DNA from: Thraustochytrium sp. TN22
Lineage: Eukaryota; Sar; Bigyra; Thraustochytrida; Thraustochytriidae
DNA length: 64,000 bases
Reading direction: 5' to 3'
Assembly (NCBI GenBank): GCA_013306675.1
Contig: JABLUY010000060.1
Span: 1 to 64,000, forward strand
Numbering within the stretch: the stretch's first letter is position 1; the number at the start of each line of letters is the position of its first letter. The notes beneath the pieces were generated by a model. It worked only from the letters and a program-made list of their open reading frames with translations. It made no database searches and was not told where the DNA came from. The position numbers and the translations under genes were made by a program. This document shows, piece by piece, positions 3,154 to 44,315 of the stretch.

Positions 3154-3284
3154 GACGGCTGCCAAGGGCGCCCCAAGCCGCGACGCGGCAGTGAGAATTC
3201 GAGCAACCTGTTGAACAAAGGAAAACAACCAAAACAAATGTTAAGCTCTCGCGCAGAGCGCCAAGGTGGGGCAGCGACGCAAAA

Positions 3285-3668: not shown

Positions 3669-3745
3669 TCGACCGTAAAGAGTGGTACCCCGCCGGGCCC
3701 CGTCGAAGTCCGAGAACGAGTCCTCGAATGCGGAGAGCGCCTTTT

Positions 3746-24539: not shown

Positions 24540-25418
24540 TCACATTAGGTCCTCCAGCACAGCGCGTGTGACCTCCGCGGCATGCGTCTGTAGAATGTAG
24601 TGCCCGCCGTCAGCAATCTCGACGTGACGGAAGCGGCCATGCGGCGCGTGCAAATGCCAAGCAGCCGGCCAGTTCTCCGGGATGGTGTCATCCAGGCGGC
24701 CGCTGATAGCTGTCACAGGCACGCCAGCGCCTTCTGCGGTCTCGTCGTACATGTAGCGCTCGGCAAGCTGCATTTGGCCGGCGATCTGCGCCATGACGTG
24801 CTCGAAATAGGTCTGATTCGCCACTAGGTTGGCCAGCGTCGAGTCGTCCTTGAAGAAGCCCAGCTGATGAAGGTCGCGCACCGTATCGTCGCGCTCCTCC
24901 TGCGTCAGGTCTTGGAAGCGCACGGCAGCCGCGGTCTCGTCCGATGGCACGAAAAAGGCGTTCTCCTTGAGGCGGTTGCTGTAGAGCAGCCGCAGGGCAC
25001 GCGAGTAGTCCTGTGGCGCGCTGCAGGCCATGGCAAAGTGGTGCTGCGGCAGGGGCTCGCCACGACGCCGAAGGCTGCGCGCCACCTCGAAAGAGATAAT
25101 GGCACCCAGGCATGACCCGGCCAGGGCGAACGGTGTGTCCGTGGGCAGAGCGCGGGAGACCGTGTCTGCGAGCTCCTGGACGGACTGCCAGAACGCGCGC
25201 CCCGTCTGCTTGCCGTAGCCCGGCATCGAGACAGGGCACACCTGGATTGTGCCCGGAATGTGCGCCATCCAATCCTGAAAGACATTCGGGTGCCCCCCCG
25301 CGTACGCGAAGCAGAAGAGGCGCAGCCGGGGTGCGAAGAGCGGCTCCAGCCACGCTGACCCACCGCTGGCATCGAGGGCCCTCAGCGCCTGGTTCGGCGC
25401 CGGTCCCTCACTCGCAGC
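24540..25418 (-). other. PKS releasing thioesterase with Cys in the nucleophile position
   Basis: Residues 5346-5637. The alpha/beta-hydrolase resembles type II thioesterases of the RifR kind (LFCFAYAGGHPNVFQDW near its start). The nucleophile elbow, GHSMGA in relatives, reads GSCLGA, putting Cys5448 in the nucleophile place. The acid is probably in SGRLDDTIPE and the base is His5618 in DGGHYIL. It should release the chain as acid or lactone. Confidence 0.8.
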
Positions 25419-28400
25419 AGTCTCACTCGCCGCGCTCGCATTCTCCGACGGCGCGCGGGGTGCCAAGTGGCCCGCCAGAAGTCGCGCAAGGCCCTCGCCA
25501 TTGACGCAGTCCAGGTAGAAGGTTGGAGTCAGGCGCACGCCCGTTCGGTCCTTGACGAGCCCCACGAGCTCCAGCGAGGTCAACGAGTCCAGACCCTGCG
25601 AGGCAAGCGAGGCAGACATGTCGGCGATCCCGCACTGACGGAGCAGGTCGCTTACAAGCGCCTCCGTGGTCTCCAGAGCGGCCCTGTCGGTCTCGTTCGG
25701 GGAGCGCAGGTCGCTCTCGCCCTCGCCCTCGGATGGTGCGTGTGCCGGACCAGGGCCCGCCAAGTACACGTTCGCGGCCTTGCTGTCCGGCTGGAAGAAG
25801 TGGGCGAGGTACCCGAGGTCCACCTGCTGGGGGCCGAAGCGAGCCCAGGCCACTGCGGACACGCCCACAACTGCAGCGTCGCCTGCCTCGCTAAGCAGCG
25901 CAGCCCTGATCGCCTCCCGGCCGCTCTCGATCGGGAGAAGGCCCATTCCGCGCGCGAGCACGGTCTGCGCGGCGCGGTCCGAGGCCACGGCGGCGCCGAG
26001 GTCGTCCCAGCCGCCCCATTGCACGGAGAGGCCCACGAGGCCCTCGGCGCGCCGCTTCGCCACGATGGCGTCCATGACAGCATTGGCCGATGCATGGTTG
26101 CTCTGACCCGCTGACCCAAAGGTGCTGGCCGCGGATGAGTACACCACGAAGTGCTCCAGGTTGGGGTACCGCTCGCGCGAGATGCGGTCCAGGTGCCCAG
26201 CTGCGGTCGCCTTGGTCGCGTAGACTGGACAGAAGTCGTCCGCCCAGTCCATGCCCGCAAGCGCGCGGTTGCGCAGCTGGCCTGCCGCGTGCACGATGCC
26301 GCGCACCGCCGGAAGGCGCGCATCGGCATCAATGCGGTCGAAAACCTTCTTACGCAAAGCCTCGTGCGAGCTCACGTCGCAGGCCACCGTGCGCACCACG
26401 GTACCGCGGCCAAAACCGCGGATCCGCTCCATGAGCTTTCGCTCGGTGGCAGCGCTCGCGTCATTCTCGCGCAGGCGCCCCGACCGCGACACGAGCACGA
26501 GGCTCTCCGCGCCCAGCTCCAGCAAGACGAGCGCGGTCAGTAGCCCGAGGCCGCCCAGGCCGCCCGTCACCACATAGGTGCCCGAGAGATGGGCCCGAGT
26601 CGCGACCGCCTCGGGAGGCGCCGGGCGCAGCGAAGCCGGCATGAGACGGCACTCGAAGCGCTCGCCACCAGCAAGACGAACTTGCGAGAGACGCGGCCCG
26701 CCAGGACGCTGCAGTTCGGACAGCACGGCGTCCACGACATGCTGCGCTGTGCACGCTTGGCCCTGGTCCATGCACACCACACGCCGGTCGTCCTCCGCCT
26801 CGAGCACCAAACTGCGCGCGAGGCCCCAGAGCGCTGCGTCTTCAGGGCGTGAGCTCGTGTCGGTGACGACCACGAGCGCTGTGAGCGCGCTATCCTGCGT
26901 GAAGGCCTGCATGTGCAAGAACATCTCGTGGAGGTCGTTGTCGCCGCCGCCGGGCGCCAGCACCAGCGCGCCGGCGCTGGCGCCTGCACCTGCCGCCGTG
27001 ACATCACGAAGGAGGCCCGCCGTAGGCCCGCTACCGTGCACGCGCGCCGTGGGCCGGCCCAGGCTCACCGCGGCAAGCGAGCGCGAAGGTGTCGCGCCGC
27101 GCAGCGCGCAGAGGACGACCTGACTCTGCGCCGCCTCGTGGATGGCCTCGGCGCGCACAAAGCCGGTCTGCTCCAGCAGCGAGACCCAGCGCTGCGGCGC
27201 CAGGAGCGGGCCCTCGCGCTCCTGGCGCGCCGGATCGTTCACCGCCGCAAAGCGCCACCAGCCACTCGTCAGCGCAAAGGTAGCATCCAAGAAGCCGGTC
27301 GAGACGGTCGCCTCGTTGAGCAGGAAGCAGCCGCCCGGAACAAGGAGGTCCGCCACCTGACCCAGCGTCACGTGCAGCTCCTGCGTGGCGTGGATGATGT
27401 TGGACGCGATGATGACGTCAAACTGCGCTGGCGCAAAGCCCTGTGCGGCCAGCGGCTCCTCCACGTTCAGGAGTGCGTATCGCATCATCGGCGCCTGCGC
27501 CCGAAAGGTCTCCTCCGCCTGCCGCAAGAAGTAGTCCGAGATGTCGGTGAAGACGTACTCGGAGCGCGCCGGGTCCAGATCGCCCACGATGTGCATAGTC
27601 GTACCGCCCGTGCCGGCGCCCAGCTCCAGGATCCGGAACACCGCCGTGGGTGCGCTGGCGTACACTGCTTGCGCCACGCCCCGCACAGCCTGTGCGATCG
27701 CCCGGTTGCACGTCAGCGAAGGCGTCGACTCGCCGTAGAGCCGCGTCGTCAGAGCCGGCTTGGAGAAGAGCACGTCCAGTACCGGCCGCTCGGCCTTCAT
27801 CATGGCCGGAAGGGCGTCCACGCAGTTACGCACGAAGTCTGCCTCCACCCCGGACGGCTCCACACCAGCACGCGCGATGTCCTCGACCGAACGCGCCTGG
27901 CTGTACGTTCGCTTCCATCGCCGGAGCAGGTGCTGCAGGTGCGGCTCCACCGGCTCGAACCCAGGAGGGAGCGTCTCCAGCGCATGCCGGATGTGCGCAG
28001 CGCAGTACAGCTCCAGCGCGGAGTCCCCTTCAGGGTCCAGCGAGGTGCGAGGCTCCACAAAGCGAGCCACCTCGGAGATCGAGAGCGAGCGCGACACGCA
28101 AGAGCGCGGCGTCGCGGCGAGCTGCCGCGGAAACCACTGCCGCTGGAAGACGTTGGTCGCGCCAAAGCCGACTCCGAAGGCGCATCGAGCGCCCTCGAGG
28201 CGAAGCAGAAGGCGGCCCGTGGCCTCCTCGCTGAGCTCCAGGGTGCCCCGGCCCGCACCTGCGCTGGCATCTACGACGCACACGTGTGGGCCCATGCCCC
28301 CCTCGCCTCGTGCGTACAGGTCGCGCGCGATGGGGCAGTTGACGCGCTCTACTTGAACCAGCGTCGGCGAGGTTGTCACCCGGACGCCACTCGCGGCCTC

Positions 28401-31400
28401 CTCAGCCCATGCCAGCACCAAACCGAGGGCCTGCACGCACTCCGCCAGAACCGCCGGCGCAAACATGGAGGCAGACCTGACGCCACCGCGGAGTCGCAGC
28501 GTCAGCTGCTGCTTGTCGCGGCTCGCCTCGACTGTTTCCGTGCACAGGGCCGCGCGAGAGCGCCAGCCGCGCTCCGCGAAGGCGTTGCGCAGCCACTCAC
28601 CGTCGTGATAAGAGTAGGTTTGTGCGAGGCCAGAAGCAAGGACGTCCGGCGTGCTCCTCGCATGAGATGCGCTTGCTTTGCAGATCACGTCCATGCCCGC
28701 GCGAACCTCGAGTTCGCCCGGGTTGATGGTGACTGCCGCCGATTGTGAGCCCTTGAGCTCCACCGCCTCGAGAAGAAGACCTTCGGCGCCCGTCCGCGCA
28801 GCGAGGCTCCAGAGCAGCGCGTCAAGCGCAGCGTGAGACGGGATGCCTTCGTCAAAGCCGAAAATGGAAGCGGCCTTGGCGCGCATTGTAGCCTGCCCAG
28901 CATCCTCAAGGTCGTGCTGCTTGGGCTTTTGTTGATGTTGCGCTCCGGACTCCGGCTGCTCCGGCTCGGGCAGCGGCTGGTGCTCAGGTTCAGAACTGAG
29001 CTGCCGCTTGTGCTCCAGCTGCCGCTTGTGCTCTGGCTGCTTGTGCTCAGGCTGCCTGTGCTCCGGCTGCTTGTGCTCCGGCTGCTGGTGGCCCAGCTGC
29101 TTGCCAAAGTTCTGGCGGGCCCAAACGATGGTCCTTTGTGCCTCGGAGGACACCGAGGCGGTTGAACTGCGCGACGTGCCCGCGCGAAGCACCACATGCG
29201 CATTCGTGCCGCCAAAACCGAAGCTCGAGACACCTGCGAGCGCCCCGCGCACGAGAGCAGTAAGCGAGCCCCTGCCCGGAAACCTCATCTGTTCGAGGGC
29301 CGCCTTGGCAACCTTGGGGTTGAGATCGGAGCCGGCCGCCTTGTCGTCGAGGCTCGCGTTCCCGGGCACGAGCTCATGGTGCACGCAAAGGATCGCCTTG
29401 AGCAGGCCGGCAAGGCCGGAAGCGCCCTCCGTGTGGCCAATGGCGGCCTTGGTGGCGCCCAGCACGAGCGGCGCGGTGCGGCCCTGGAAGACGCGAGCCA
29501 AGGCGCTGACCTCAAGCGGGTCACCGAGCGCCGTCCCGGTGCCGTGCGTCTCCACAAAGGCGACCTCATCTGGCGCGGCTCCGGCACGTTCGAGCGCCAG
29601 TTTGATGACCTGCTCCTGCGCCCGGCCATTTGGCGACGTGATGTTCGCGCTGCGACCGTCCTGGTTCACGGCAATGCCCAGTACCTCCGCAAAGACCGCC
29701 TGATGCGTCGGCACGGACGCGGTGCGCTGCAAGACCACGGCAACACAGCCTTCGCCGCGCGCGTAGCCGTCCGCGCTGGCCGAGAAGGTCGAGCAGGCGC
29801 CACGCGGGGACAGCATACGTGCGGCGCACTCCTCCACGTAGAGCTTCGGCGAAAGAATGAGGTTGATGCCCACCACGACAGCCGCATCGCAGTCGCCCGA
29901 AGCGAGCGCCCTGCATGCGGCGTCGAGCGCCACGAGGGACGAGCTGCAAGCCGTGTCGAGCGTCATGCTTGGGCCGGTGAGGCCGAGCAGATAAGAGATC
30001 CGGTTCGCGGCGACCGCCGGCGAGTGGCCCGTGGCGGTGAAAGGAGACGGGTCACCGTGCTCCATGGATGCCCAGTCGTGCGTCATCATGCCCACGTAGA
30101 CGCCGATGCGCTCTGTGCGCACGGCGGACGGGGACACACGCGCGCGCGGCACGCCCGGGTCCTCCACAAGGCCGGCGCCGACAAGCGCCTCGTAGGCGCA
30201 CTCGAGCGAGAGGCGCTGCTGTGGATCCATGCGGGCGGCCTCCAGGTCCGAGATACCAAACTTGGCATTGTCAAAGAGGTGCACGTCATCCACAAAGGCG
30301 CCTCGGTCCACATAGGCCTTGCCTGCGGTCCCCGGTTCCGCGTCAAAGTACGAGCGCATATCGAAACGTGCGGCAGGCACGTGCTGCATGGCGTTTCGCC
30401 CCGAGCAAAGCAGATCCCAGAATGCTTCGGGTGAATTGGCGCTTCCCGGCAGACGGCAAGCAACGCCAACAATCGCGTAGGTGGACTGCGCGGTCTCGTC
30501 CGGAGTGCAACTGCCCTCCTTGATCTCCTCCTCCGTCTCGTGGAGGACCTCATTGGACGACTCAACCGGGAGCTGCGCGAGGAGCCAGTCGGCGAGGTCC
30601 TTTGCGGTCGTATAGTCGAAGAGTAGCGTGTCCTCCAGCTCCAGTGCGGCGGTACCCACGACTCGGTCCTGAAGAAGGTTGCGGAACTCGACCATGGCGA
30701 GGGAGTCCAGACCCGCGTCGCGCCATGGGTCGTCAAGGCCGATCGATGCGTGGTCCGGGCTCACCTCTTGCGCGATGGCGAGGATGGTGCTGCGCAGACC
30801 GCCCAGCGTCCTCGGGGCGCGTGAAGGCCCCGTCGCGGACGCAGACTCGGCGCCAGGAACGGACACAAAGTCGCAAATGGTCAGCACCGCGACATCTCGC
30901 GGCACGCGCAAGAGCGCGTCGATCGCATGACTCGCACTCAGCGGCCGCAGCTGCATCCGCTCCCACTTGCGCGAGAGGCTGGCGGCCATGCCCGCGCCGG
31001 CCCACGGCCCCCAGCGAATGCTGGTCGCCGGAACGCCCCGGGCGTGCAGGCGTTCGGCGAGCGCGTCCAGCTCCGCGTTGGCGGCGCCGTACACTGCCTG
31101 GCCTGCGGAGCCCACAGACCCGGCAATGCTCGAGAAGAGCACGAAGAAGTCAAGCTCCGCCGTCTGCAGGACACTCGCGAGGTTTTCGGCGCCGAGGACC
31201 TTGGGCGCGCGCACGACGTCCAGGTCCGAAGGGTTCGCGGCGACCAGCGTGGCATCCCGTAGGACACCTGCGCAGTGCACAACGCCGCGCACCTCGTTGC
31301 GAAGATCGTGCAGTGCGGCGGCCACAGCCTGCGCATCGCTCACGTCGCAGCGACGGAATTCGCAGCCCTCCTCCAGTGGCTCACGGGGTTCCCTACGACC

Positions 31401-34400
31401 AAGCAGGACCGCCACGCCGGCGCGCTGGACGATGGCCTTGACAACGAGTCTGCCGAGAGCGCCTGCGCCGCCCGTCACGACGTAGCGCGCCCCCGAGCGA
31501 ATGCGCACGAGCGCGTTTGCAACGCTCGCTTCGAGCTTTTCCAGTCCGCCAAAGGCCTCGACCGAGCCGTCGGAGCGAATGCGAAGGTCCTTCGAACTTC
31601 TGTGGAGCGTGGCCAAGCGGAGGACCTGGTCCTGCAGCACGCTGCAGCCCTGCGCTGCAACCAAGCGTAGCTGGGCCCGCGGGAACTCGCGTCGCGCGCA
31701 GGCCACGAGTCCTCCATGGCCAGCAGAGCGCCCGACAACGAGGATGCGAGCTCCCGGGGTCGTCGAGAGGACGCCAGCGAGGCGCGGCAGAAGCGCCGCA
31801 GCAGTGGGCTCGTCCATCACGATCTCCTCGCCGAGGCTCTCGGGCTCCAGGGTCACCTGCGCCGGGGCCCAGCGGTCCGCCCAGAGCAGACCGTCACCGG
31901 CGCCTGAATGCGCAGCGGCGCCGCGAGCAAAGAAGCCGAAGCTGAATTGGCGCACCTCGGCGAGGAGCTCGCCGTTGTCGCGGCAGATGCGCATGTCGAA
32001 GGTGTTGGGGGAGGTGCGGGAGATGAGTGACCACAGGAAGGCGTCCGCGGCTGCCGCGCGCTTGGTGGCCGCGTCCGCGAGCCAGTACGACCCCACGCGC
32101 TCAGCATACACAGGACGGCTGCGCTCCTCCGTGGACAGCGCCGCGAGGGCAACGTGCGAGGCGGCGTCGAGCCAAGAGGATGCGAGTGCGTCAGCCGCTA
32201 CGGTCGGGTCAATCTCCACCTTGCCGATGAGCCTCGATCCGTCGGCGTCCGCCCAGGCCGCCGAGACGGCGCGAAAGGGCCCACGGTACTGGTTGCCAAT
32301 GCTTGCATACAGCGCGTCCCCGCTTGGCAGTTCGCGCGTGCAGGTGGCCCGAAGTGCCGCCAGTTCCTCGCTACCCAGAGCCGCGTGCTCCGCCGGCCCG
32401 ACTCGCATGGAGGCACGGAGGCGGTCGTCATGGGCGGACACGATCGTGACCGTCCCCGCGCTAGGGTCATGCGAGAGCACGAACTTGAGCTCGCGTGCGT
32501 TCTCCGGGATGAAGAGCATACTGCGAAAGCTAAGCTCGTTGAAGGTGAGCGCCTTCCCCGCAAAGAGCGGCTGTACGAGCTCCATGTAGGAAGTGGCCGG
32601 AAACACTGCGAGCGCGCCCACACGGTGATTCCGGATCAGCTCCGTGAGCCCGGTGGAGAGCTCCTCGTTCCAGGTCATCGTGGCGGCTGGCGCGTCGCCA
32701 GGGCTTGACTTGTACAGGCTGAGCACCCTGGTCGGCAGCAGCTTGGGCCGGAAGCAGGCGACCGCGCGCGCGGCCCGGGCAGGGTCCACGGCGGCGAGCA
32801 CGACGTGAGCGTTGGTCCCGCCGAAGCCAAAGGAGGAAACGCCGGCGAGGAGAGCGCCGCAACCTTGCGGCGAGGCCTGGATCGCTTGCGATTGCGTCGG
32901 GAAAGCGAGCGGGCAGCGCTCCTGGATGCGCAGGATGCGCGGGTTGAGCTTGGCGCAGTGCAGGTTGGGCGGGAGCTCGCCGGCGCGGAGGCTGAGAAGA
33001 GCCTTGATAATGCCGGCCAGGCCGGCGGCTGCCTCGAGATGGCCGATGGCGGACTTGACCGCGCCCACGGGCAACGCGCGGCGGCGGTCCTTGAAGACCG
33101 TGGCGAGGGCCTCCAGCTCTTGTGGATCACCCAGACGCGTTCCCGTGCCGTGGGCCTCCACGAACGCGACTTCGTCTGCATCGCTGACGCCAGCGCGGTG
33201 CAGCGCCTCCTCGATGCACGCCACCTGCGCCGGCCCACGCGGCGAAGTCAGGTTAGCACTGCGGCCGTCCTGCGTGAGCGCCACGCCACGAACCAGACCC
33301 CAGGCGGGCAGGCTCGCGGTTTTATCCAGCGTAAGCACGAGTGCTGCGCCTCCCTCGCCGCGCGCGTAGCCGTCCGCATCCTCGGAGAAGGTGGCACAGC
33401 GGCCCTGCGGGGAGAGCATGCGCGCAGCGCACGTGGTCTCGAAGCGGTGGCTCGAGAGCATGAGGTCCACGGCCAGCACCAGTGCACTGGTGCAGTCACC
33501 AGCACGCAGCGCCTTGAGAGCGGCGTCCATAGCCACCAGCGACGAGGAGCACGCGGTGTCGATGGTCATGGACGGGCCAGTCAAGTCAAAGGCAAAGGAG
33601 ATGCGGTTCGCGATGATGGAGAGCGCCGTGCCGGTCGCCGTGAAGGTGCTAACCTTGTTGGCCTGCGAGAGCATGTACTCGGTGTTCTGCGCGCCAACGA
33701 AGACACCAACGCGCTCCATATCGGCGCCCGCGGCCTCGGCAGATGCCAGCGCCTCTGAGGCGACCTGCAGCGCGAGGCGCTGGTGCGGGTCCATTGCCTC
33801 GCAATCAGCGTCGGAGAACGGGAAGGCGCCGCGGATGTCGGCGTCAAAGAGCTCCGGGTGCAGAAAACCGCCCTTGCGCACGTACACGCCATGAGGCAGC
33901 TCCGGAATACGCGCTGCCGGGACCTCGCGCAGAGCGTCGCCGCCGCGCTGCAGAAAGTCCCAGAATCCGAGCGGGCTCGCGTTCGTGCGCGGCCCTGGGA
34001 ATCGCAGCGCCATGCTGACGACCGCCGCATCCTCGCGCTGCAAGCTCGAGGTTGGTACCTGCGCAGCGGTCAGTGCGCCTCGTGTGCCGGTATCAGTGTT
34101 TGCGGCGCACGGAAGTGGTGCGAGAGGCGCCCAGGTGTCCGCCACGTGCTGTGCGAGCTGCCGCGGGGTGGGATGGTCAAACATGACGGTGTCGGAGAGC
34201 TCGTTGGACGTACCACGAATGCCGAGGGCCGTGTTGAGCGCCGAAGTGAACTCCGTCATGGACAGCGAGTCGAAACCCACTTGCTGCCACGGCGTGGAGG
34301 GCTCCAGGGACGCCGTGGTCCCCGCCTCGCCCTTGAGCAGCGGCTTCGCCTCTGCGAGAAGCCACGCCTCGAGCACTTTGGGCCGCTTTGCAGCCTCGGT

Positions 34401-37400
34401 CTGTGTGAGCTGGTTCACGAGAGTGGACGGCCGCCCGACCTGCGGCGCCGCAGCCTCATCGTGAGGGCCAGCTGCCTCGGGCACAGTGAGCTCGTCCAAG
34501 AGGCCCGGGTTGGAGATGGTCTTGCGAAGTCGCGCCAGGTCGGCGTCTAGCACAAGCAAGGTTCCGACGGAGTCCGCGCCCTCCTGCTCCAGGGCCTGCA
34601 GAACGCCGATGAGCACCTGACAGGCGCGTCGCGTGCTGAGGCCGCGCGCTGCGCTTCCCATGGAGCGAGCGTGCGCCATACCGGTCTCCTTCCAAAGATC
34701 CCATTGGATGCTCACAGCGGCGCGGCCTTGCGCCCGCGCGGCGTCGATGGCAGCCTCGAGCGCAGCGTTTGCCATTGCGTAGACTGGCGCCTCGCGCATC
34801 CCAAAGACCGAAGACGTGGACGAGAAGCCCACGAGGGCCGCAGCCGGAAAGCAAGCCTGCACGTTAGAGAGGCCCTGGGTCTTGGGCGCCTCGTGCGCGT
34901 CCAGGACGCTCTCGTCTAGCGTCTCGAGGCTCGCTTCCTGCAAGATCCCCGCCACATGCAGAACAATGTCGACGAGGTTCGCGCCAATGCTGCTGGCAAT
35001 GCTGGCCACGTCAGCCCGCTTGCTCACATCGCCTGAGACCCAGGTGACCCGCGCGTCGGTCTCACGATCAGTCGGAAGCGCCCGGGCCAAAGCGAAGACC
35101 TTGCCGACGCCGGCGTTCAGAAGAGCTGCGATGATGGCACGGCCGATGCCGCCGGAAGCGCCCGTAACGAGAACGGTCTTGGAGGGCAGGTGCAGACTGT
35201 AGGGAATGAGATGCTCGCGTGGGCGCAGAAGCGGGACCTGGACCTCGATTCGGCCGCTCTCGACAACAACACGTTGCTCCAGAGCGTTCTTTAGCAGAGG
35301 CGCAGCGCGGGCCGCCTTTGCACTTGGCGCCTCAACGAGGCGGACGATCCAGCGCGGCCGCGCAAGGCGCAGCGAGCGTATGAGCGCGCTGACGGCAGGC
35401 TCGGGCGTCGCCAGCGTGAGCTCACAGCTTTCGGAGGGCGCGAGAAGGTCCACGAGCGCGCGGACCTCTTTCAGAGAACGCACAAAGTGCACGTCGTCTG
35501 TGACGCCGCGTGGCGCGCCATCGGGCTGGGCGACCCAGGTCACTTCGTAGGTGAAGGCGCCCGGGCTCCATGGAAGTCGGGGCGCACCAGGGAGCGGCGT
35601 TACGACGGTAAGCGCCTGCTTGCAGTCCCCGCGCGGCGCAGCCACGATGACGTGCGCGTTTGTGCCGCCGAAGCCAAAGGCTGAGACGCCCGCGACAGCG
35701 CCCAAAGCAAGCGGGAAGGGCGCGGTGCAGGGGAAATGCATCCACGGAGCAGCGACGTGTGCGACTTTGGGATTGCGGTCACCCTGGTGCAGGTTGGGCG
35801 GGACGCGGCCGTGTTGCAGGCAAAGTAGCGACTTGAGGACGCCAGAGAGGCCTGCCACCGCCTCGCCGTGACCGATGACCGTCTTGAGCGCTCCCATGCA
35901 GACCTGGCCCGGGTGGCCCTTGAGCGCGTCAGCAAGCGCTCCAATCTCGATCGGATCGCCCAGCGGCGTCCCCGTGCCGTGCGTCTCAACGTATGCAAGA
36001 TCCGCCAGGTCCACATTCGCGCGCTGCATCGCGCGCTGCACGACGTCGACTTGCGCCCTGCCGTTGGGGGAGGTGAGGTTGGCGCTGCGGCCGTCCTGGT
36101 TCACGGCCGAGCCGAGGACCGTGCCCCACGAGGCGCGGCGTTGCGAGACCACCTTGTCTGCGGGCTCCAGCACGAGCGCGACGCAGCCTTCCCCGCGCGC
36201 GTAGCCGTCAGCATCTGCAGAGAAGGTGGCGCAGCGGCCAGTCGGAGACAGCATCTTGGCAGCGCATTCCTCCGCGTGCACGCCGGCGTCAAGGATGAGG
36301 TTGACGCCGAGGACGACGGCAGCGTCGCAGTCGCCACGCGCAATCGCGGCGGAGGCCACGTCCAGCGCCACAAGACCGGAGCTGCAGGCTGTGTCAATGG
36401 CCATGGACGGCCCTTGCAAGCCGAGCGCATACGAAATGCGGTTCGCCAGAACGCACGGGATCTGGCCAGCTGCGGAGTACGCGGTCGGGGCGGACGGGTC
36501 CATGAGGCGCGCCCAGTCGTTGGTCATGACGCCCACAAAGACGCCCACGCGCGTCGTGTGGCCCAGGCCGGCGTCCTCCAGGGCATCTGCGGCCACAGTG
36601 AGCGCGAGACGCTGCTGCGGGTCCATCTGAGAAGCCTCAGCAGGCGCGATGCCGAATCGCTTGTGGTCGAAGCAGTCTGCACCGTCCACAAAGGCTGCGC
36701 GCCGGGCGTAGATGCGCTCCGGCATGGTCTCCCAGTCGAAGCGGGCCAGGGGAATGTCCGTCATGGTGTCCTTGCCACTCTCAAGGAGCCCCCAGAGCGC
36801 GCCTGGACTGGCGACGCCGCCCGGTAGCCTGCACGCGGCGCCTGTCACGGCGAGCGGGCCGCTCCCAGCTGGTGCGGGCCCCGGAGCAGCAGGCATAGGG
36901 CGCACGGCCATGCCAGGGTTGCCACTCTGCAGGAGCGACTCCTCGAGGTAACCACACAGCGCGTGCGGTGTCGGGTAGTCAAAGAGCACGGTCTCGCGCA
37001 GCTCGACGGAGTTCGGAACCGCGGCACGCAGTGTGTTGCGGAACTCAACCATGGCGAGTGAGTCGAGGCCCGCATCGCGCCACGGCGTGTCCTCCTTGAG
37101 TTCCGAGGTGTCGAAGAAGGTCGACGCGACGCGCCACACGATGGCATGCGCCGCCGGTGCGCCTTTCTCATCCGCCTCCGTTGACGCAGGCAAAGACGGG
37201 CGTGCGAGGCTTGAAAGAAGGTCCTGGACCGCCGCGTCGTCGGACCAAGCCGCCGGGGCGCCCGGTGCGGTTGGATCCAGCGAGGCGATGGTGACCACAG
37301 GCCCGCAGTCCTTCGAAAGCCCAAAGAGAGCGGCGACGGCGGCCTGCGGCTGCATGGGCGGAAGGCCTAGACGCTTCCAGCGCGTCGAGGACGCCGCGGC

Positions 37401-40400
37401 CATGCTTGAAGCGCCCGCCCAAGGGCCCCACTGGACGCTGATGATCTTGTCCGAGCGCGACGCCTCCGCCATGGCATCCAGGACAGCATTCGCGGCGGCG
37501 TAGTTAGCCTGGCCAGCGCTGCCGAAGCACGAGGTGATGCTGGAGCACAACACGACAAAGTCGAAGGGGCAGCGTAGCGTCTGCAGCACCTCAAGAAGGG
37601 CTTCGGCGCCGCGGACCTTGCCGGCGAAAACCGCGTCGAATTCGTCGAGCTTGGGAATGGTGCTGTCCTGCAGGACGCCGGCGCAATGGAAGACGCCGCG
37701 GATCTCGCGGGCAAAGGGCCGGAGCGCTGCCTCAAGCACCGAGATGTCGCAGATATCGCACTGCACGTAGCGCAAGGCGGGAAAACCCGTCGCATCGGCG
37801 GGCTGCGGAGATCGGCCCAAGAGAAGGACCGTACCGGCGCCGCGACGCGCGAGCTCGTGTGCGAAGACCCGACCGAGAGCACCAGCCCCGCCAGAGACTA
37901 CATAAACGCCGCCCTTGACGATCTGAATGAACTCATCGCCCGGTGCGTGGGCATGGACCTGCTCGAGCCGGCGCAGTGCCACGCGGCCATCTTCGGCGAA
38001 GAGGACCTCCGGCTCGCCCCGGTACGCGACGAAGGGGCTCAAGGAGGGTCCGCAGAAGGTGGAGACGGACCAGTCTGGGTACTCGCGGCGCAGCGAGCGC
38101 ACGTACCCCTCCTGCGCCGGGTCTTCCACGCGGATGCCTAGGGATGAGGGGCGCTCCTTGAGCGGCAGGCGCAGCAAAGCGCGGACGTGCTCGTGCAGCT
38201 CTTCGCAGGTATTCTCGGCGAGCACGACGGCCGGCTCGAAGGGCTCGAGCGCCGTCACTTGCTGCGAGCTCAAGCGTTGCCACACAGGGCGGAGCACGGT
38301 GGGCATCGTCTCGCGCCGGCCCGCGCGCGAGCTCTGGCCCATGGTGAAGCCACGTGCGGCTGCCACGAGCGCGCCGCTAGCCGTGTAGAGGTCCCAGTCG
38401 AAGCAGAGGGCACCCTGCTCCCGCACGACGCACCACGAGGGCTCCGAGCACGCGGAGGGCGCCCAGGCCGGCGAGCACCAGACGAGATCGTAACCCTGCG
38501 CAAAGTGCGGCTGTGCGCGGGCCTCCGAGGGGAGGGCGAGAAGGCAGGCATGCGCTGCGGCGTCGAGAAGGACCGCACAGGCCAGCTCATCCGTCGTGGC
38601 GGCGCCCTCCGGCAGTTGCAGCTGCGCAACGAGGCGCTGGCCGTCTTCGCCAGCGCGATGCGCGGCCCGCAGGGCCTGGAAGATGCCGAGGTACTGGTTG
38701 CCGAGGTCTGCGTAGAAGGTCGACAGGTCCAGGGTAGCCTTCGAGGCGTGCACGTCGGCATCAAAACCAGAGAGCGCTGCGACGGGCGGCGTGGCGAGGT
38801 GGTCCACAGCAAATTCGCATAGCAGAGTGCCCTTGTCGTCCACGAAATTCGCTCTGTTTGAGGCCCGGTGCATGGACAGGGTCCAGGAGCTTGCGACGGG
38901 AAGATGGGTGACGGCACGGAAGTGCACGTTGCGTAGGTGCGCGCCGGGATGCAGACGTGCGGCCAGCGCGACCCAGAAGGAGCCCGGCACCACAGCGAGC
39001 GTGCCGACACGGTGATCTTCTAGCTTGCGCAGCATGGCATCGTCCGCGAGACGGAGGGTGCGCACGAGGTGCGCCTCGAAGGGAATCTCCCGGCAATTGC
39101 CGGCGAAACGCAGCGCGTTGCGCGAGACGAGGTCCTGACCGTGCAGCGCAGGGCCGACCGCTTGCAGGACTGCGTGCGCATTCGTGCCGCCAAATCCAAA
39201 GGAGGATACGCCGGCGCAGATCCCCTCCTGGGACGGCAGGCGGACGGCGTCCGAGGCCGAGACGGGCGCGAGGTTGTATGCTTCGAAGTTGACGGCGTCG
39301 GTGAGCTTCTCCAGGCGAGGGTTGGGAGGGAGCTGGCGCGTTTGGAGCGCGACGATGGCTGCGACGAGGCCGATCATGCCCGCGGCGCCCTCCAGGTGGC
39401 CGAACTGCGACTTGATGGAGGCCAGATGCAAGGGCGTCGTGCGCGAGGGGGCGGCGCCAAGTGCCAGGTGCAGTCCCTGGGCCTCGATCGGGTCGCCCAG
39501 TCGCGTCCCGGTCCCATGTGTCTGTACGAAGCAGACCTGGCCCGCGTCGACGCCAGCGCGCGCATAGGCCTGGCGCAGGAGCGCGGCCTGGGCCTCCGGG
39601 TTGGGCGCGTGCAGGTTGGCGGTGCGGCCATCTTGGTTGACGGCCACAGCGCCAACCTTCACGCGCGCCGAGGCCGCGTACGCCTCCGGCAGGGCGTCCG
39701 CGCGTGCTAGCAGCAGGGCACCAGCGCCTTCGCTACGAGCGTAGCCGTCGGCGCGCGCGTCGAAGGCAAAGCAGGCCTGTGACGGCGAGAGGAAACCGCC
39801 CTGACGGAGCAGCGCGGTGCGCGCGCCGAGAGCGTCGACCACGTTGACGCCGATGACGAGCGCCGCATCGCAGGCGCCGTTGTGCAGGGACTGTAGCGCA
39901 TAGTCGAGCGCCACGAGCGAGCTGGAGCAAGCCGTGTCAACAACGACACTGGGCCCAGAGAGGTCGAGCGTGTACGAGATGCGGTTGGCGAGAATGGAGG
40001 TGGAAAAGGCCGCTGCGGCGCCGGCAGAGGATGCCTCGAGCGCCTCCTCGGAGGGCGTCTCGCCGCAGCCGCCGTCCCAGGCGCCAACGAAGACACCCAC
40101 ACGGCGACGGACGTGGTCCAGGAAACCCTCGGGCGCGTCGCCGATGGCGGCGAGCGCGGTCTCGAGTGCGAGGCGTTGCGCAAGCGGCATGCAGCGCGCC
40201 TGCTCGAAGGTCACGCCGCGCTCCAGCAGTGCGAGGCTGAAGCGATCCCGCTGCGCAAGGCGCTTGAATGACGCAGGGTCTGTGTCGGCGCTGTGCAGCG
40301 CGTGCCAAAAGTCCTCGACGGTCTCGATGTCGCCATCGGCCGCGGCAGCGCCGGGAAAGCGCATACCCATGCCAAAGACCAGCACCGGCGCCTTCGCCTT

Positions 40401-41453
40401 TGCCGTTTTCGTCTCCTCAGCCTCGCCAGCGCTCCTCTCGGTGGATGTTCCTGCCACGCATGTGGCGCCCGTGAAAGCGCGTTCCAGCTTGGCGAGCGTG
40501 TTGACGCCGAAGAGGAAGGATACGTCCAGCGGCGACTCCAAGGCGTCCTCGAGCCTGCCGTGCAGCTGCATGAGCGAGACAGAGTCGAGCCCGAGCTCAA
40601 ACCACGGCCGGTTCGCGTCCACGTGCGCGTCGGCTTCGACGCCCAGAGCCTCCCGCACGAAGCTCGCGAGCTGGTCCGCCGTCATCTTGGCAGCTGCGAG
40701 TGCGGCCGTGGGCGCGGAGGGCATCTTTTGCGTCGTGGGCGCGGGTTGGTACTCCATCATGACGGCGAAGCCCGCGTTCGCAAGGTCGCGAGGGTTGTAA
40801 TCCGCGATGAGGCCCTGAAAGCGCGCACCGTGGCTGGTATGCAAAAAGAGGTTGCGGTCCGTACGCACTGAGGTCTCGACGTAGTCCTCGAGATCCCAGA
40901 GGCTGGCGATCTGGCCGTCCGACAAGTCGCTGCAGTGCGTGAGAGCGCGAACGCGCGAGGCGCCCAGTTGGTCGAAGCAGTGCGCGCGGGCCCTGGCGTG
41001 AAAGTCATCGAGCAGGTTGCGAGCCATGGGGTCCAGCACGAGGTGCACCCAGAGAATCAGGTCCCCGGATGCATCCGCCTGGTCGAAAACCGTATCGTAG
41101 CGCAGGCTGTCGCAGGACTCGGCATTGACGCGCACAAAGTACAAGACGCCGGCTACCTTGCTGCCATGAGGCGCCATCGCGCTCGCAGACTCGTGCGACC
41201 CGACAGAGGCCGAGTCGGACGAGCCAGAGGAGGTATCGTCCGAGGCATCGATGCTCGAGGGCTCGGGACAGACTACGAGCATAAGCGCGCCACCCACCTC
41301 AGGCGCGAGCTTGAGACGGCGCTTGAGCACTTGCATGTCGACCTGGAACGCCGGATTGACGAAACACTCAAGGCGCGCGAGCGCCTGCGCGTCAACCTCG
41401 CCCGCCTGACGCACCTGGAAACGCGAGGAGGCCGGCATAGTTTCGGTCGTCAT
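24540..41453 (-). CDS. AT-less modular polyketide synthase with GNAT loader, four modules and thioesterase
   Basis: One intronless frame of 5,637 residues. Order: GNAT-like loading domain (about 8-222), ACP (Ser291); module 1 KS (Cys509)-DH (His814, Asp964)-KR (Tyr1318)-ACP (Ser1465); module 2 KS (Cys1690)-KR (Tyr2225)-ACP (Ser2396); module 3 KS (Cys2635)-DH (His2943, Asp3096)-KR (Tyr3455)-ACP (Ser3584); module 4 KS (Cys3836)-degenerate DH-C-methyltransferase (ELGAGTGG near 4608)-KR (His5120 in place of Tyr)-ACP (Ser5290); thioesterase (Cys5448, His5618). All KS domains keep the Cys-His-His triad (DTACSS, HGTGT, GHxE). No acyltransferase or enoylreductase domain is present. The ACPs must therefore be charged in trans, as in bacterial trans-AT synthases. 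The start is the ATG at 41453; the frame is open 18 codons upstream without an ATG. I see no acyltransferase or phosphopantetheinyl transferase gene nearby. Confidence 0.95.
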   Translation of the reverse strand: MTTETMPASSRFQVRQAGEVDAQALARLECFVNPAFQVDMQVLKRRLKLAPEVGGALMLVVCPEPSSIDASDDTSSGSSDSASVGSHESASAMAPHGSKVAGVLYFVRVNAESCDSLRYDTVFDQADASGDLILWVHLVLDPMARNLLDDFHARARAHCFDQLGASRVRALTHCSDLSDGQIASLWDLEDYVETSVRTDRNLFLHTSHGARFQGLIADYNPRDLANAGFAVMMEYQPAPTTQKMPSAPTAALAAAKMTADQLASFVREALGVEADAHVDANRPWFELGLDSVSLMQLHGRLEDALESPLDVSFLFGVNTLAKLERAFTGATCVAGTSTERSAGEAEETKTAKAKAPVLVFGMGMRFPGAAAADGDIETVEDFWHALHSADTDPASFKRLAQRDRFSLALLERGVTFEQARCMPLAQRLALETALAAIGDAPEGFLDHVRRRVGVFVGAWDGGCGETPSEEALEASSAGAAAAFSTSILANRISYTLDLSGPSVVVDTACSSSLVALDYALQSLHNGACDAALVIGVNVVDALGARTALLRQGGFLSPSQACFAFDARADGYARSEGAGALLLARADALPEAYAASARVKVGAVAVNQDGRTANLHAPNPEAQAALLRQAYARAGVDAGQVCFVQTHGTGTRLGDPIEAQGLHLALGAAPSRTTPLHLASIKSQFGHLEGAAGMIGLVAAIVALQTRQLPPNPRLEKLTDAVNFEAYNLAPVSASDAVRLPSQEGICAGVSSFGFGGTNAHAVLQAVGPALHGQDLVSRNALRFAGNCREIPFEAHLVRTLRLADDAMLRKLEDHRVGTLAVVPGSFWVALAARLHPGAHLRNVHFRAVTHLPVASSWTLSMHRASNRANFVDDKGTLLCEFAVDHLATPPVAALSGFDADVHASKATLDLSTFYADLGNQYLGIFQALRAAHRAGEDGQRLVAQLQLPEGAATTDELACAVLLDAAAHACLLALPSEARAQPHFAQGYDLVWCSPAWAPSACSEPSWCVVREQGALCFDWDLYTASGALVAAARGFTMGQSSRAGRRETMPTVLRPVWQRLSSQQVTALEPFEPAVVLAENTCEELHEHVRALLRLPLKERPSSLGIRVEDPAQEGYVRSLRREYPDWSVSTFCGPSLSPFVAYRGEPEVLFAEDGRVALRRLEQVHAHAPGDEFIQIVKGGVYVVSGGAGALGRVFAHELARRGAGTVLLLGRSPQPADATGFPALRYVQCDICDISVLEAALRPFAREIRGVFHCAGVLQDSTIPKLDEFDAVFAGKVRGAEALLEVLQTLRCPFDFVVLCSSITSCFGSAGQANYAAANAVLDAMAEASRSDKIISVQWGPWAGASSMAAASSTRWKRLGLPPMQPQAAVAALFGLSKDCGPVVTIASLDPTAPGAPAAWSDDAAVQDLLSSLARPSLPASTEADEKGAPAAHAIVWRVASTFFDTSELKEDTPWRDAGLDSLAMVEFRNTLRAAVPNSVELRETVLFDYPTPHALCGYLEESLLQSGNPGMAVRPMPAAPGPAPAGSGPLAVTGAACRLPGGVASPGALWGLLESGKDTMTDIPLARFDWETMPERIYARRAAFVDGADCFDHKRFGIAPAEASQMDPQQRLALTVAADALEDAGLGHTTRVGVFVGVMTNDWARLMDPSAPTAYSAAGQIPCVLANRISYALGLQGPSMAIDTACSSGLVALDVASAAIARGDCDAAVVLGVNLILDAGVHAEECAAKMLSPTGRCATFSADADGYARGEGCVALVLEPADKVVSQRRASWGTVLGSAVNQDGRSANLTSPNGRAQVDVVQRAMQRANVDLADLAYVETHGTGTPLGDPIEIGALADALKGHPGQVCMGALKTVIGHGEAVAGLSGVLKSLLCLQHGRVPPNLHQGDRNPKVAHVAAPWMHFPCTAPFPLALGAVAGVSAFGFGGTNAHVIVAAPRGDCKQALTVVTPLPGAPRLPWSPGAFTYEVTWVAQPDGAPRGVTDDVHFVRSLKEVRALVDLLAPSESCELTLATPEPAVSALIRSLRLARPRWIVRLVEAPSAKAARAAPLLKNALEQRVVVESGRIEVQVPLLRPREHLIPYSLHLPSKTVLVTGASGGIGRAIIAALLNAGVGKVFALARALPTDRETDARVTWVSGDVSKRADVASIASSIGANLVDIVLHVAGILQEASLETLDESVLDAHEAPKTQGLSNVQACFPAAALVGFSSTSSVFGMREAPVYAMANAALEAAIDAARAQGRAAVSIQWDLWKETGMAHARSMGSAARGLSTRRACQVLIGVLQALEQEGADSVGTLLVLDADLARLRKTISNPGLLDELTVPEAAGPHDEAAAPQVGRPSTLVNQLTQTEAAKRPKVLEAWLLAEAKPLLKGEAGTTASLEPSTPWQQVGFDSLSMTEFTSALNTALGIRGTSNELSDTVMFDHPTPRQLAQHVADTWAPLAPLPCAANTDTGTRGALTAAQVPTSSLQREDAAVVSMALRFPGPRTNASPLGFWDFLQRGGDALREVPAARIPELPHGVYVRKGGFLHPELFDADIRGAFPFSDADCEAMDPHQRLALQVASEALASAEAAGADMERVGVFVGAQNTEYMLSQANKVSTFTATGTALSIIANRISFAFDLTGPSMTIDTACSSSLVAMDAALKALRAGDCTSALVLAVDLMLSSHRFETTCAARMLSPQGRCATFSEDADGYARGEGGAALVLTLDKTASLPAWGLVRGVALTQDGRSANLTSPRGPAQVACIEEALHRAGVSDADEVAFVEAHGTGTRLGDPQELEALATVFKDRRRALPVGAVKSAIGHLEAAAGLAGIIKALLSLRAGELPPNLHCAKLNPRILRIQERCPLAFPTQSQAIQASPQGCGALLAGVSSFGFGGTNAHVVLAAVDPARAARAVACFRPKLLPTRVLSLYKSSPGDAPAATMTWNEELSTGLTELIRNHRVGALAVFPATSYMELVQPLFAGKALTFNELSFRSMLFIPENARELKFVLSHDPSAGTVTIVSAHDDRLRASMRVGPAEHAALGSEELAALRATCTRELPSGDALYASIGNQYRGPFRAVSAAWADADGSRLIGKVEIDPTVAADALASSWLDAASHVALAALSTEERSRPVYAERVGSYWLADAATKRAAAADAFLWSLISRTSPNTFDMRICRDNGELLAEVRQFSFGFFARGAAAHSGAGDGLLWADRWAPAQVTLEPESLGEEIVMDEPTAAALLPRLAGVLSTTPGARILVVGRSAGHGGLVACARREFPRAQLRLVAAQGCSVLQDQVLRLATLHRSSKDLRIRSDGSVEAFGGLEKLEASVANALVRIRSGARYVVTGGAGALGRLVVKAIVQRAGVAVLLGRREPREPLEEGCEFRRCDVSDAQAVAAALHDLRNEVRGVVHCAGVLRDATLVAANPSDLDVVRAPKVLGAENLASVLQTAELDFFVLFSSIAGSVGSAGQAVYGAANAELDALAERLHARGVPATSIRWGPWAGAGMAASLSRKWERMQLRPLSASHAIDALLRVPRDVAVLTICDFVSVPGAESASATGPSRAPRTLGGLRSTILAIAQEVSPDHASIGLDDPWRDAGLDSLAMVEFRNLLQDRVVGTAALELEDTLLFDYTTAKDLADWLLAQLPVESSNEVLHETEEEIKEGSCTPDETAQSTYAIVGVACRLPGSANSPEAFWDLLCSGRNAMQHVPAARFDMRSYFDAEPGTAGKAYVDRGAFVDDVHLFDNAKFGISDLEAARMDPQQRLSLECAYEALVGAGLVEDPGVPRARVSPSAVRTERIGVYVGMMTHDWASMEHGDPSPFTATGHSPAVAANRISYLLGLTGPSMTLDTACSSSLVALDAACRALASGDCDAAVVVGINLILSPKLYVEECAARMLSPRGACSTFSASADGYARGEGCVAVVLQRTASVPTHQAVFAEVLGIAVNQDGRSANITSPNGRAQEQVIKLALERAGAAPDEVAFVETHGTGTALGDPLEVSALARVFQGRTAPLVLGATKAAIGHTEGASGLAGLLKAILCVHHELVPGNASLDDKAAGSDLNPKVAKAALEQMRFPGRGSLTALVRGALAGVSSFGFGGTNAHVVLRAGTSRSSTASVSSEAQRTIVWARQNFGKQLGHQQPEHKQPEHRQPEHKQPEHKRQLEHKRQLSSEPEHQPLPEPEQPESGAQHQQKPKQHDLEDAGQATMRAKAASIFGFDEGIPSHAALDALLWSLAARTGAEGLLLEAVELKGSQSAAVTINPGELEVRAGMDVICKASASHARSTPDVLASGLAQTYSYHDGEWLRNAFAERGWRSRAALCTETVEASRDKQQLTLRLRGGVRSASMFAPAVLAECVQALGLVLAWAEEAASGVRVTTSPTLVQVERVNCPIARDLYARGEGGMGPHVCVVDASAGAGRGTLELSEEATGRLLLRLEGARCAFGVGFGATNVFQRQWFPRQLAATPRSCVSRSLSISEVARFVEPRTSLDPEGDSALELYCAAHIRHALETLPPGFEPVEPHLQHLLRRWKRTYSQARSVEDIARAGVEPSGVEADFVRNCVDALPAMMKAERPVLDVLFSKPALTTRLYGESTPSLTCNRAIAQAVRGVAQAVYASAPTAVFRILELGAGTGGTTMHIVGDLDPARSEYVFTDISDYFLRQAEETFRAQAPMMRYALLNVEEPLAAQGFAPAQFDVIIASNIIHATQELHVTLGQVADLLVPGGCFLLNEATVSTGFLDATFALTSGWWRFAAVNDPARQEREGPLLAPQRWVSLLEQTGFVRAEAIHEAAQSQVVLCALRGATPSRSLAAVSLGRPTARVHGSGPTAGLLRDVTAAGAGASAGALVLAPGGGDNDLHEMFLHMQAFTQDSALTALVVVTDTSSRPEDAALWGLARSLVLEAEDDRRVVCMDQGQACTAQHVVDAVLSELQRPGGPRLSQVRLAGGERFECRLMPASLRPAPPEAVATRAHLSGTYVVTGGLGGLGLLTALVLLELGAESLVLVSRSGRLRENDASAATERKLMERIRGFGRGTVVRTVACDVSSHEALRKKVFDRIDADARLPAVRGIVHAAGQLRNRALAGMDWADDFCPVYATKATAAGHLDRISRERYPNLEHFVVYSSAASTFGSAGQSNHASANAVMDAIVAKRRAEGLVGLSVQWGGWDDLGAAVASDRAAQTVLARGMGLLPIESGREAIRAALLSEAGDAAVVGVSAVAWARFGPQQVDLGYLAHFFQPDSKAANVYLAGPGPAHAPSEGEGESDLRSPNETDRAALETTEALVSDLLRQCGIADMSASLASQGLDSLTSLELVGLVKDRTGVRLTPTFYLDCVNGEGLARLLAGHLAPRAPSENASAASETAASEGPAPNQALRALDASGGSAWLEPLFAPRLRLFCFAYAGGHPNVFQDWMAHIPGTIQVCPVSMPGYGKQTGRAFWQSVQELADTVSRALPTDTPFALAGSCLGAIISFEVARSLRRRGEPLPQHHFAMACSAPQDYSRALRLLYSNRLKENAFFVPSDETAAAVRFQDLTQEERDDTVRDLHQLGFFKDDSTLANLVANQTYFEHVMAQIAGQMQLAERYMYDETAEGAGVPVTAISGRLDDTIPENWPAAWHLHAPHGRFRHVEIADGGHYILQTHAAEVTRAVLEDLM
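25419..30533 (-). other. PKS module 4: KS-(degenerate DH)-cMT-KR-ACP
   Basis: Residues 3641-5345. The KS is intact (Cys3836). A Gln-Pro-Glu-His repeat linker (about 4120-4159) precedes a DH-like fold without the His-x3-Gly-x4-Pro motif, so dehydration is not expected. The S-adenosylmethionine-dependent C-methyltransferase spans about 4430-4790 (ILELGAGTGGTT, then FTDISDYF). The KR has TGGLGGLG and SNHASANAV, with His5120 where the proton-donating Tyr normally sits. ACP Ser5290 is in GLDSLTS. Predicted chemistry: extension, alpha-methylation, reduction uncertain. Confidence 0.85.
28980..29095 (-). repeat. Gln-Pro-Glu-His repeat inside the PKS
   Basis: Degenerate tandem copies of a 12- to 15-base unit encode QPEHK-like repeats in the linker after KS4 (residues about 4120-4159). 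The frame is kept throughout. Confidence 0.8.
30534..34118 (-). other. PKS module 3: KS-DH-KR-ACP
   Basis: Residues 2446-3640. KS with DTACSSS (Cys2635) and EAHGTGT; DH with NHRVGALAVFPA (His2943) and WLDAASH (Asp3096); KR with TGGAGALGR and VYGAANA (Tyr3455); ACP with AGLDSLAM (Ser3584). Domain order and the ACP block PWRDAGLDSLAMVEFRN are the same as in module 1, suggesting that one arose from the other by duplication. Predicted chemistry: a second enoyl unit. Confidence 0.88.
34119..36923 (-). other. PKS module 2: KS-KR-ACP
   Basis: Residues 1511-2445. KS with DTACSSG (Cys1690) and GHGE in place of the more usual GHLE; KR with TGASGGIGR and VYAMANA (Tyr2225); ACP with VGFDSLSM (Ser2396). 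It has neither DH nor AT. Predicted chemistry: extension and reduction to a beta-hydroxy group that is left in place. Confidence 0.88.
36924..40418 (-). other. PKS module 1: KS-DH-KR-ACP
   Basis: Residues 346-1510. KS at 355-767 with DTACSSS and THGTGT; the DH double hotdog with HRVGTLAVVPG (His814) and LDAAAHA (Asp964); KR with SGGAGALGR and NYAAANA (Tyr1318); ACP with AGLDSLAM (Ser1465). The DH begins directly after the KS; no GHSxG-type acyltransferase is interposed. Predicted chemistry: one two-carbon extension, ketoreduction and dehydration, giving an enoyl intermediate. Confidence 0.88.
40419..41453 (-). other. PKS loading module: GNAT-like domain plus ACP
   Basis: Residues 1-345 of the synthase. 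The first 220 residues end in FLHTSHGARFQG...IADYNPRDLANAGFAVMMEY, closely following the His-x-x-His-Gly-Ala and R/N-P-x-D-x-x-N-x-G pattern of the GNAT-like loaders of bacterial synthases such as curacin CurA (His205, His208 here). In that family the domain loads a starter acyl group, typically acetyl, onto the next ACP. An ACP with Ser291 in GLDSVSL follows. A Ser/Asp-rich low-complexity insert lies near residues 70-95. Confidence 0.85.
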
Positions 41454-44043: not shown

Positions 44044-44315
44044 CGTGACGACGTGCGGGCCGGCGAGGAGCGCCTGCGGCCGCGCGAGCAAAGGCTTGCG
44101 GTCTTGCTCGGGCGCCGACCTTGCGCCCGCAACAGCTGACTGCGAGTGTGTGAGTGGCAGCCTGAGGAGATGAGACGAGCGGCGGCGCCACGACAGCGCC
44201 TCGACTTGGCGTGGCGGAGACCGGGAGACGAGCGCGCAAAGCAAAGCAAAGCAGCAACGCGTAGGCCCGTGCGCGGCGGCGGCGCGGCAGGCGCGGCGGC
44301 CGCGGCGGCGGCGCG
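44044..44315. promoter_or_regulatory. 272-base divergent promoter region
   Basis: Only 272 bases separate the start codon of the two-kinase gene (minus) from that of the TatA/B-like gene (plus), so both promoters must share this DNA. GCAAAGCAAAGCAAAGCA repeats occur at about 44235-44253. No TATA-like element is apparent. Confidence 0.4.

Follow-up and report, generated by a model that had tools for sequence, protein, structure and literature searches.

We found that the window analysed here, a stretch of 64,000 nucleotides of Thraustochytrium sp. TN22 (contig JABLUY010000060.1), contains a real, intact-looking eukaryotic modular polyketide synthase (PKS) without acyltransferase (AT). The gene lies at 24540..41453 on the minus strand and is a single exon encoding 5,637 aa plus the stop codon. 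It belongs to a protist kind of synthase that is already in print, to which our results add a starter domain, the apparent loss of most of the linker behind the KSs and named candidates for the helper genes; a duplication unit is added as a lead. Taken as a whole, the PKS is in our judgement fairly probably a non-iterative, AT-less assembly line of a thraustochytrid-like protist, which would follow trans-AT logic, be charged by a free-standing malonyl transferase on contig C244 and be started by a GNAT-like domain.

The single intronless frame of the original prediction was borne out. The minus-strand frame is free of stop codons from 41507 to 24540 (5,655 codons), and its first in-frame ATG at 41453 gives the boundary already proposed. 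Under a simple independent-base model with 67% GC, the chance that a given frame stays open over 5,655 codons is about 10^-56. In addition, Pfam gave the domain order ACP, KS, DH, KR, ACP, KS, KR, ACP, KS, DH, KR, ACP, KS, MT, KR, ACP, TE, that is, four KSs, five carrier domains, four KRs, a methyltransferase (MT) before KR4 and a C-terminal thioesterase (TE), in agreement with the four KS modules, five ACPs and thioesterase that had been predicted. With several KS-ACP modules, processing domains and a release domain in one chain, the protein is a modular type I PKS, and by Pfam it lacks the combination of its own AT and tandem ACPs that marks a PUFA synthase or a type I FAS. The N-terminal GNAT domain, the methyltransferase and a Tyr-to-His replacement in KR4 were absent from the original prediction.

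The same layout is known from another thraustochytrid. For the PKS-like gene Mn4_04057, Table 4 of PMC6050695 (2018) gives the string PP-KS-DH-KR-PP-KS-KR-PP-KS-DH-KR-PP-KS-MT-KR-PP-TE, without AT; all 17 domains stand in the same order as in our PKS, in a comparison of the published string and not of sequences. However, the parts of PMC6050695 available to us do not mention a GNAT domain, the loss of an active site or a partner AT for this gene, which was weighed there for DHA synthesis; ten AT-only genes were listed as trans-AT in the same source. Furthermore, Shelest et al. 2015 described about 30 noniterative algal PKSs, nearly all without an integrated AT, together with an AT displacement model (PMC4661987), and trans-AT PKSs with adenylation-type starters were described in Chlamydomonas and Chrysophaeum (PMC7073580, PMC10366177). 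The view that AT-less multimodular synthases are rare outside bacteria is outdated, since they have been published for green algae, a haptophyte and a pelagophyte, and the same domain string occurs in the thraustochytrid gene. As far as the accessible parts of these papers go (PMC4661987, PMC7073580, PMC10366177), the chlorophyte, haptophyte and pelagophyte PKSs resemble ours in being eukaryotic, multimodular and free of AT, with module duplication proposed. They differ from it in the starter, which is of adenylation type in Chlamydomonas and Chrysophaeum (PMC7073580, PMC10366177) and GNAT here, and in the methyltransferase, which is missing from most of the algal trans-AT PKSs.

All domains lie on the minus strand, and most active sites are kept. 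KS1 (39153..40391), KS2 (35628..36848), KS3 (32778..34061) and KS4 (29172..30455) were recognised by Pfam, motif and tree, and the Cys, His and His residues are present in all four. DH1 (38298..39110; PF14765; HRVGTLAVVP) and DH3 (31953..32765; PF21089 exactly at the cut-off; HRVGALAVFP), both with approximate limits, keep HxxGxxxxxP and D...H. The KRs were placed by Pfam (PF08659 for KR1) and alignment, and the catalytic motif reads NYAAAN in KR1 (37416..37910), in which the catalytic Tyr is kept, VYAMAN in KR2 (34734..35180) and VYGAAN in KR3 (30999..31490). In KR4 (26001..26582), it reads NHASAN, with His in place of the catalytic Tyr, and KR4 is probably inactive. The five ACPs keep DS: the loading carrier ACP1 (40476..40673; GLDS; PF00550 and alignment), ACP2 (36963..37169; Pfam, motif and alignment), ACP3 (34143..34316), ACP4 (30588..30815) and ACP5 (25479..25622), the last three by Pfam and alignment. 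The methyltransferase core (27324..27629; PF08242, alignment) has the motif LELGAGTGG, and the thioesterase (24543..25322; PF00975, alignment) keeps GSCLG and GGH. The loss of the Tyr in KR4 and the low FPKM of the relative Mn4_04057 (3.52; PMC6050695) would suit a non-functional or decaying relic. However, 5,637 codons are open, the motifs of KS, KR1-KR3, DH, ACP and TE are kept, and the same domain string occurs in a thraustochytrid whose genome has 65.69 Mb and 45% GC according to the part of PMC6050695 available; we consider a relic very unlikely.

The absence of AT was supported by three lines of evidence. PF00698 was not listed at E values up to 0.1 in any of three overlapping pieces of the PKS (Pfam), a second AT profile (15 bacterial cis-AT sequences and two free-standing ATs of the same genome) gave no match in the PKS frame, and the motif GH[SA]xG was not found there. 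No module contains an AT, as predicted, and in its working logic the PKS is of trans-AT type. Between KS4 and the methyltransferase lies a stretch of 508 aa without a recognised domain (27648..29171), in which a 15-base tandem repeat of 6.3 copies at 29006-29103 encodes QPEHK-type repeats. Two candidates for this stretch were rejected. A hidden AT was negative with Pfam and the second AT profile, and the PDB search returned only two matches with E values of 0.53 and 1.1; a degenerate DH obtained no support from hhalign against DH1 and DH3. The fold model of the stretch was too poor for use (mean pLDDT 41.6).

In contrast to the working logic, descent from the bacterial trans-AT family, which the label "trans-AT-type" also implies, was not supported by the linker test or the KS tree. 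A profile of the KS-AT linker, made from 57 segments of cis-AT loci and trained on bacteria only, matched behind 26 of the 28 bacterial KSs that lack an AT and have 300 aa or more of following sequence (two of the 28 from Legionella loci), whereas none of the four PKS KSs is followed by a match. Over all 30 AT-less KSs tested, there were again 26 matches, and two of the four misses were host KSs (those of the C26 protein and the PUFA synthase). On cis-AT KSs, the profile matched 69 of 78, a figure that includes its own training set and is not independent. Short parts of PF16197, the KS C-terminal extension, were matched after the PKS KSs (profile positions 21-65 of 111 in the matches shown), and some of the linker may thus survive. 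We claim that most of the linker appears lost, while loss of all of it is not proven. In addition, the DH motif begins 53 aa after the end of KS1 and 59 aa after that of KS3. Four of 31 other AT-less rows have a DH-like motif, at 210, 216, 323 and 377 aa, of which the two longest distances are less sure.

For the phylogenetic analysis, the bacterial comparison set comprised the best 80 loci among the matches listed and five plasmid regions, which is not an even sample. A KS was labelled cis-AT or AT-less according to whether or not the second AT profile matched within 350 aa after it. The careful tree has 72 rows; 34 surplus cis-AT KSs, 18 KSs with less than 500 aa downstream and 4 Legionella KSs were left out before counting, the KSs of L005 and L013 from the host were not entered in the KS trees, and FabF, L092, L094 and two L037 rows were then removed. 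In this tree, 20 of the 23 bacterial AT-less KSs formed a clade with support of 100/100, which we took as the bacterial trans-AT clade, and the PKS KSs lie outside it. KS2-KS4 formed a clade of their own (98/99), and KS1 stood apart from them on a long branch. Nevertheless, 82% of 200 bootstrap trees grouped KS1-KS4, and a tree uniting all four was not rejected (AU p 0.605). Apart from one another, the PKS KSs had cis-AT KSs of cyanobacteria and Chloroflexota as their closest rows by path, and KS1 also those of Parabeggiatoa. A quick tree of 77 rows had given a clade at 97 with 20 AT-less and two divergent cis-AT rows, and a single clade of KS1-KS4 at 91. It was superseded by the careful tree, because a 72-row quick tree with the PKS and AT-less rows held together beat the free tree by 27.99 log units.

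The remaining three bacterial AT-less KSs, all from one Janthinobacterium lividum plasmid (NZ_CP139977.1), were placed among cis-AT rows. On this plasmid, AT-less and AT-bearing modules occur on neighbouring or the same proteins, which could be an instance in bacteria of an AT being lost outside the trans-AT clade.

These results bear on whether the PKS truly belongs to the bacterial trans-AT lineage, having been gained by horizontal transfer and diverged afterwards. The AT-less plan, the GNAT starter and the in-module methyltransferase would fit bacterial trans-AT systems, and a sister relation of KS1-KS4 to the bacterial AT-less clade was not rejected (AU p 0.328). When the KS profile was run against the PDB, AT-less chains scored about as high as cis-AT ones, the bacterial AT-less PKS chain 4qyr being close to the cis-AT CurL (399 vs 421 bits). 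However, the strongly supported bacterial clade excludes the PKS KSs, their nearest rows are cis-AT, the linker profile finds none of the four, and the codon use of the gene is like that of its neighbours. Such a transfer is therefore improbable to us, and we keep to the reading of a protist assembly line that shares the logic and not the family.

The original prediction was right in its logic that AT and phosphopantetheinyl transferase (PPTase) have to be provided by the host, and genes of both kinds are present elsewhere in the assembly (37.9 Mb, 453 contigs). At least five AT matches were found: in the FAS (C442), in the PUFA synthase (C124), in a protein on C26 and as two free-standing transferases, on C98 and C244, so that the proposed search for a stand-alone malonyl transferase was successful. 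The C244 enzyme lies at C244:67266-68072. Its best PDB match is 2c2n (6.2e-49), and the next chain is named mitochondrial malonyl-CoA transacylase. Codon periodicity sets in with the ATG that immediately precedes the domain (GC 0.723, 0.510 and 0.839 by codon position, against 0.50, 0.53 and 0.53 in the 90 bases upstream), and a leaderless, cytosolic protein is thus the likelier product. The frame is also open upstream of this ATG, and if translation starts further upstream, the protein could be mitochondrial. The C98 transferase, with 3qat as its best PDB match (2.2e-52), has a coding, Arg/Ala-rich N-terminal stretch with a GC3 of 1.0 and looks mitochondrial. We take 2c2n to be the human enzyme and 3qat to come from Bartonella. 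For carrier activation, a PPTase with AASDHPPT_N and ACPS domains is encoded on C66; further PPTases are a 192-codon frame on C123, AcpS-like by reading of its sequence, and one inside the FAS.

We infer that the C244 transferase is the best trans-AT candidate for the PKS. Alternatively, another megasynthase (C26, PUFA synthase or FAS) could lend its AT for the malonyl units, or C98 could deliver them. The number of AT genes makes this conceivable, the C26 protein begins with an AT followed by KS and carrier, and semi-trans AT has been discussed for haptophytes in the part of PMC7073580 that we could consult. However, the C98 protein has a leader-like coding stretch, the ATs of the FAS and the PUFA synthase lie inside their own enzymes, and C244 would otherwise seem to have no obvious task. 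We regard another source as unlikely and prefer C244.

The other megasynthase genes of the genome can be described as follows. The C26 protein (C26:4164-10274, or L102:365-6475) has 2,036 aa, with an N-terminal AT, a KS, a carrier and then an NAD/FAD oxidoreductase-like part; its order resembles that of the AT-KS-PP gene Mn4_10926, which is highly expressed in its thraustochytrid according to the accessible part of PMC6050695. The FAS is of fungal type; its frame of 4,221 codons holds two alpha-ACP stretches as well as a PPTase domain. The PUFA-synthase-like genes on C124 have tandem ACPs, KS-KS and FabD_helical_ins. In Schizochytrium, a PUFA synthase and a single type I FAS have been described (PMC11145866, as far as available to us). 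Together with the genes around the PKS, this FAS and PUFA-synthase set suggests a thraustochytrid-like protist as the host.

The GNAT-like starter (loading) domain spans 40746..41423 on the minus strand, with a significant match at 40746-41168 (phmmer, PDB chains) and an N-terminal part below threshold. Similarity to the GNAT loading domains of GphF (7.7e-6) and CurA (0.0019) covers residues 96-236, numbered from the ATG, and residues 11-50 align to GphF below threshold only. An FHxxHGA stretch and then Y.P.D are kept in the alignment, and the domain sits directly before ACP1; homology to CurA/GphF, the conserved His stretch and the adjoining ACP are all features of a GNAT-type loading domain. 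In the available parts of the sources, GNAT-like domains are described as decarboxylating malonyl or methylmalonyl starters on line in trans-AT modular PKSs (PMC8302727), and malonyl-CoA decarboxylation and S-acetyl transfer are cited for the CurA GNAT (PMC3075265). By analogy, the domain of our PKS may decarboxylate malonyl units and supply an acetyl starter. The CurA/CurL system (PDB 2ree, 4mz0) has a GNAT loading domain in common with the PKS, with weak similarity; CurL carries an AT, unlike the PKS, and both the C244 and the C98 transferase have 4mz0 among their PDB matches. GNAT-loaded trans-AT PKSs of bacteria, represented by GphF through the PDB match, share the working logic of a GNAT starter, an AT in trans and an in-module methyltransferase, but belong to another KS clade and mostly retain the KS-AT linker. 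Pederin-type systems are of this kind.

As to the origin of the starter domain, no second match was found elsewhere in the genome, in the plasmid collection or in two further genomes, and two of 292 cyanobacterial genomes gave weak matches (best 3.6e-6). Among the matches listed from the open literature on thraustochytrids and algal trans-AT PKSs, as far as those texts were available, a GNAT starter in such a gene was not found; the accessible parts of PMC10794256 and PMC12258536 likewise mention no such gene with GNAT.

These observations suggest the following scheme. The GNAT-like domain would give ACP1 an acetyl group from malonyl units, a free-standing malonyl transferase (best candidate C244:67266-68072) would load ACP2-ACP5 with malonate, and the two-domain PPTase of C66 would activate the carriers. 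The four KSs would carry out four extensions, with processing by KR/DH, then KR, then KR/DH and then the methyltransferase, as KR4 is probably dead. If the modules are used colinearly, acetyl, four malonates and one methyl are predicted to form a 2-methyl-3-oxo-7-hydroxy-deca-4,8-dienoyl chain, or its 3-hydroxy form if KR4 works. Release by the thioesterase would yield a C10 chain with one methyl, as 2-methyl-3-oxo-7-hydroxy-deca-4,8-dienoic acid or a derivative.

Comparison of the modules gave hints on how the gene may have grown. Among the KSs, KS2 and KS4 are the most similar (56% identity), by a small margin over KS3-KS4 (52) and KS2-KS3 (50); KS1-KS4 reach 45% and KS1-KS3 43%. KR1 and KR3 share 48% (next pair 39), and ACP2 and ACP4 share 50% (next pair 40, with one of the ten ACP comparisons aligned over 3 columns only). 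Furthermore, a collinear alignment of residues 790-1975 with 2905-4125 extends over 1,189 columns at 39.6% identity. Together, the KS, KR and ACP identities and this alignment favour a duplicated unit of DH-KR-ACP-KS, in which each KS goes with the preceding module. The DH comparison is limited to one pair, and modules 1 and 3 do not stand out in the DH-KR stretch (27%, against 29% for modules 1 and 2), so that the unit is a lead and not proof. A like unit has been proposed for bacterial trans-AT systems. In our reading, the AT and most or all of the KS-AT linker have been lost, and the modules seem to have multiplied by duplication inside the gene. A further step, which we put forward only tentatively and hold somewhat less probable than not, would be an independent eukaryotic reinvention: AT and linker cut from a cis-AT ancestor, the GNAT acquired, a second MCAT-type transferase kept cytosolic as trans-AT, the DH-KR-ACP-KS units multiplied and the whole conserved across thraustochytrids.

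One genome here yields both an AT-less synthase and a specific malonyl-transferase candidate, a point left open in the algal papers as far as available to us. With both named, the use of a recruited MCAT-type transferase by a eukaryotic trans-AT synthase becomes directly testable. The absence of the KS-AT linker and the possible DH-KR-ACP-KS unit bear on the origin of AT-less assembly lines outside bacteria. In addition, thraustochytrids are industrial oil producers, and the product is thus of practical interest too; the protist itself looks akin to marine makers of omega-3 oils.

The contig had been predicted to be eukaryotic, and its gene content confirmed this. The genes that flank the PKS include those for a kinesin with a KIF21A-like part, a formin, a protein kinase, a PfkB-type kinase, a dihydroxyacetone kinase, a Lon protease and an aromatic amino acid lyase. 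The codon-use distance of the PKS to seven of the flanking genes pooled is 0.092, compared with 0.139-0.288 for each of the seven against the rest, a low value that is due in part to the PKS being the longest gene. A single exon and high GC could suggest bacterial contamination or an assembly chimera, but eukaryotic genes with the same codon use stand on both sides in one contig, and the other thraustochytrid has the same layout (PMC6050695, available part); we give this explanation practically no weight and treat the PKS as a gene of the protist. No light-harvesting gene was found in the genome by a search that was positive, among the control genomes, in Synechococcus only. Among the neighbours, the PfkB-type sugar kinase at 42037-44244 (minus strand) has an N-terminal P-loop part and adjoins the dihydroxyacetone kinase at 45233-47005 (minus strand), the protein of 421 aa encoded at 49560-50825 carries a cellulose-binding domain of fungal type (CBM1), and at 59592-63338 a formin FH2 domain lies behind tetratricopeptide repeats in one frame.
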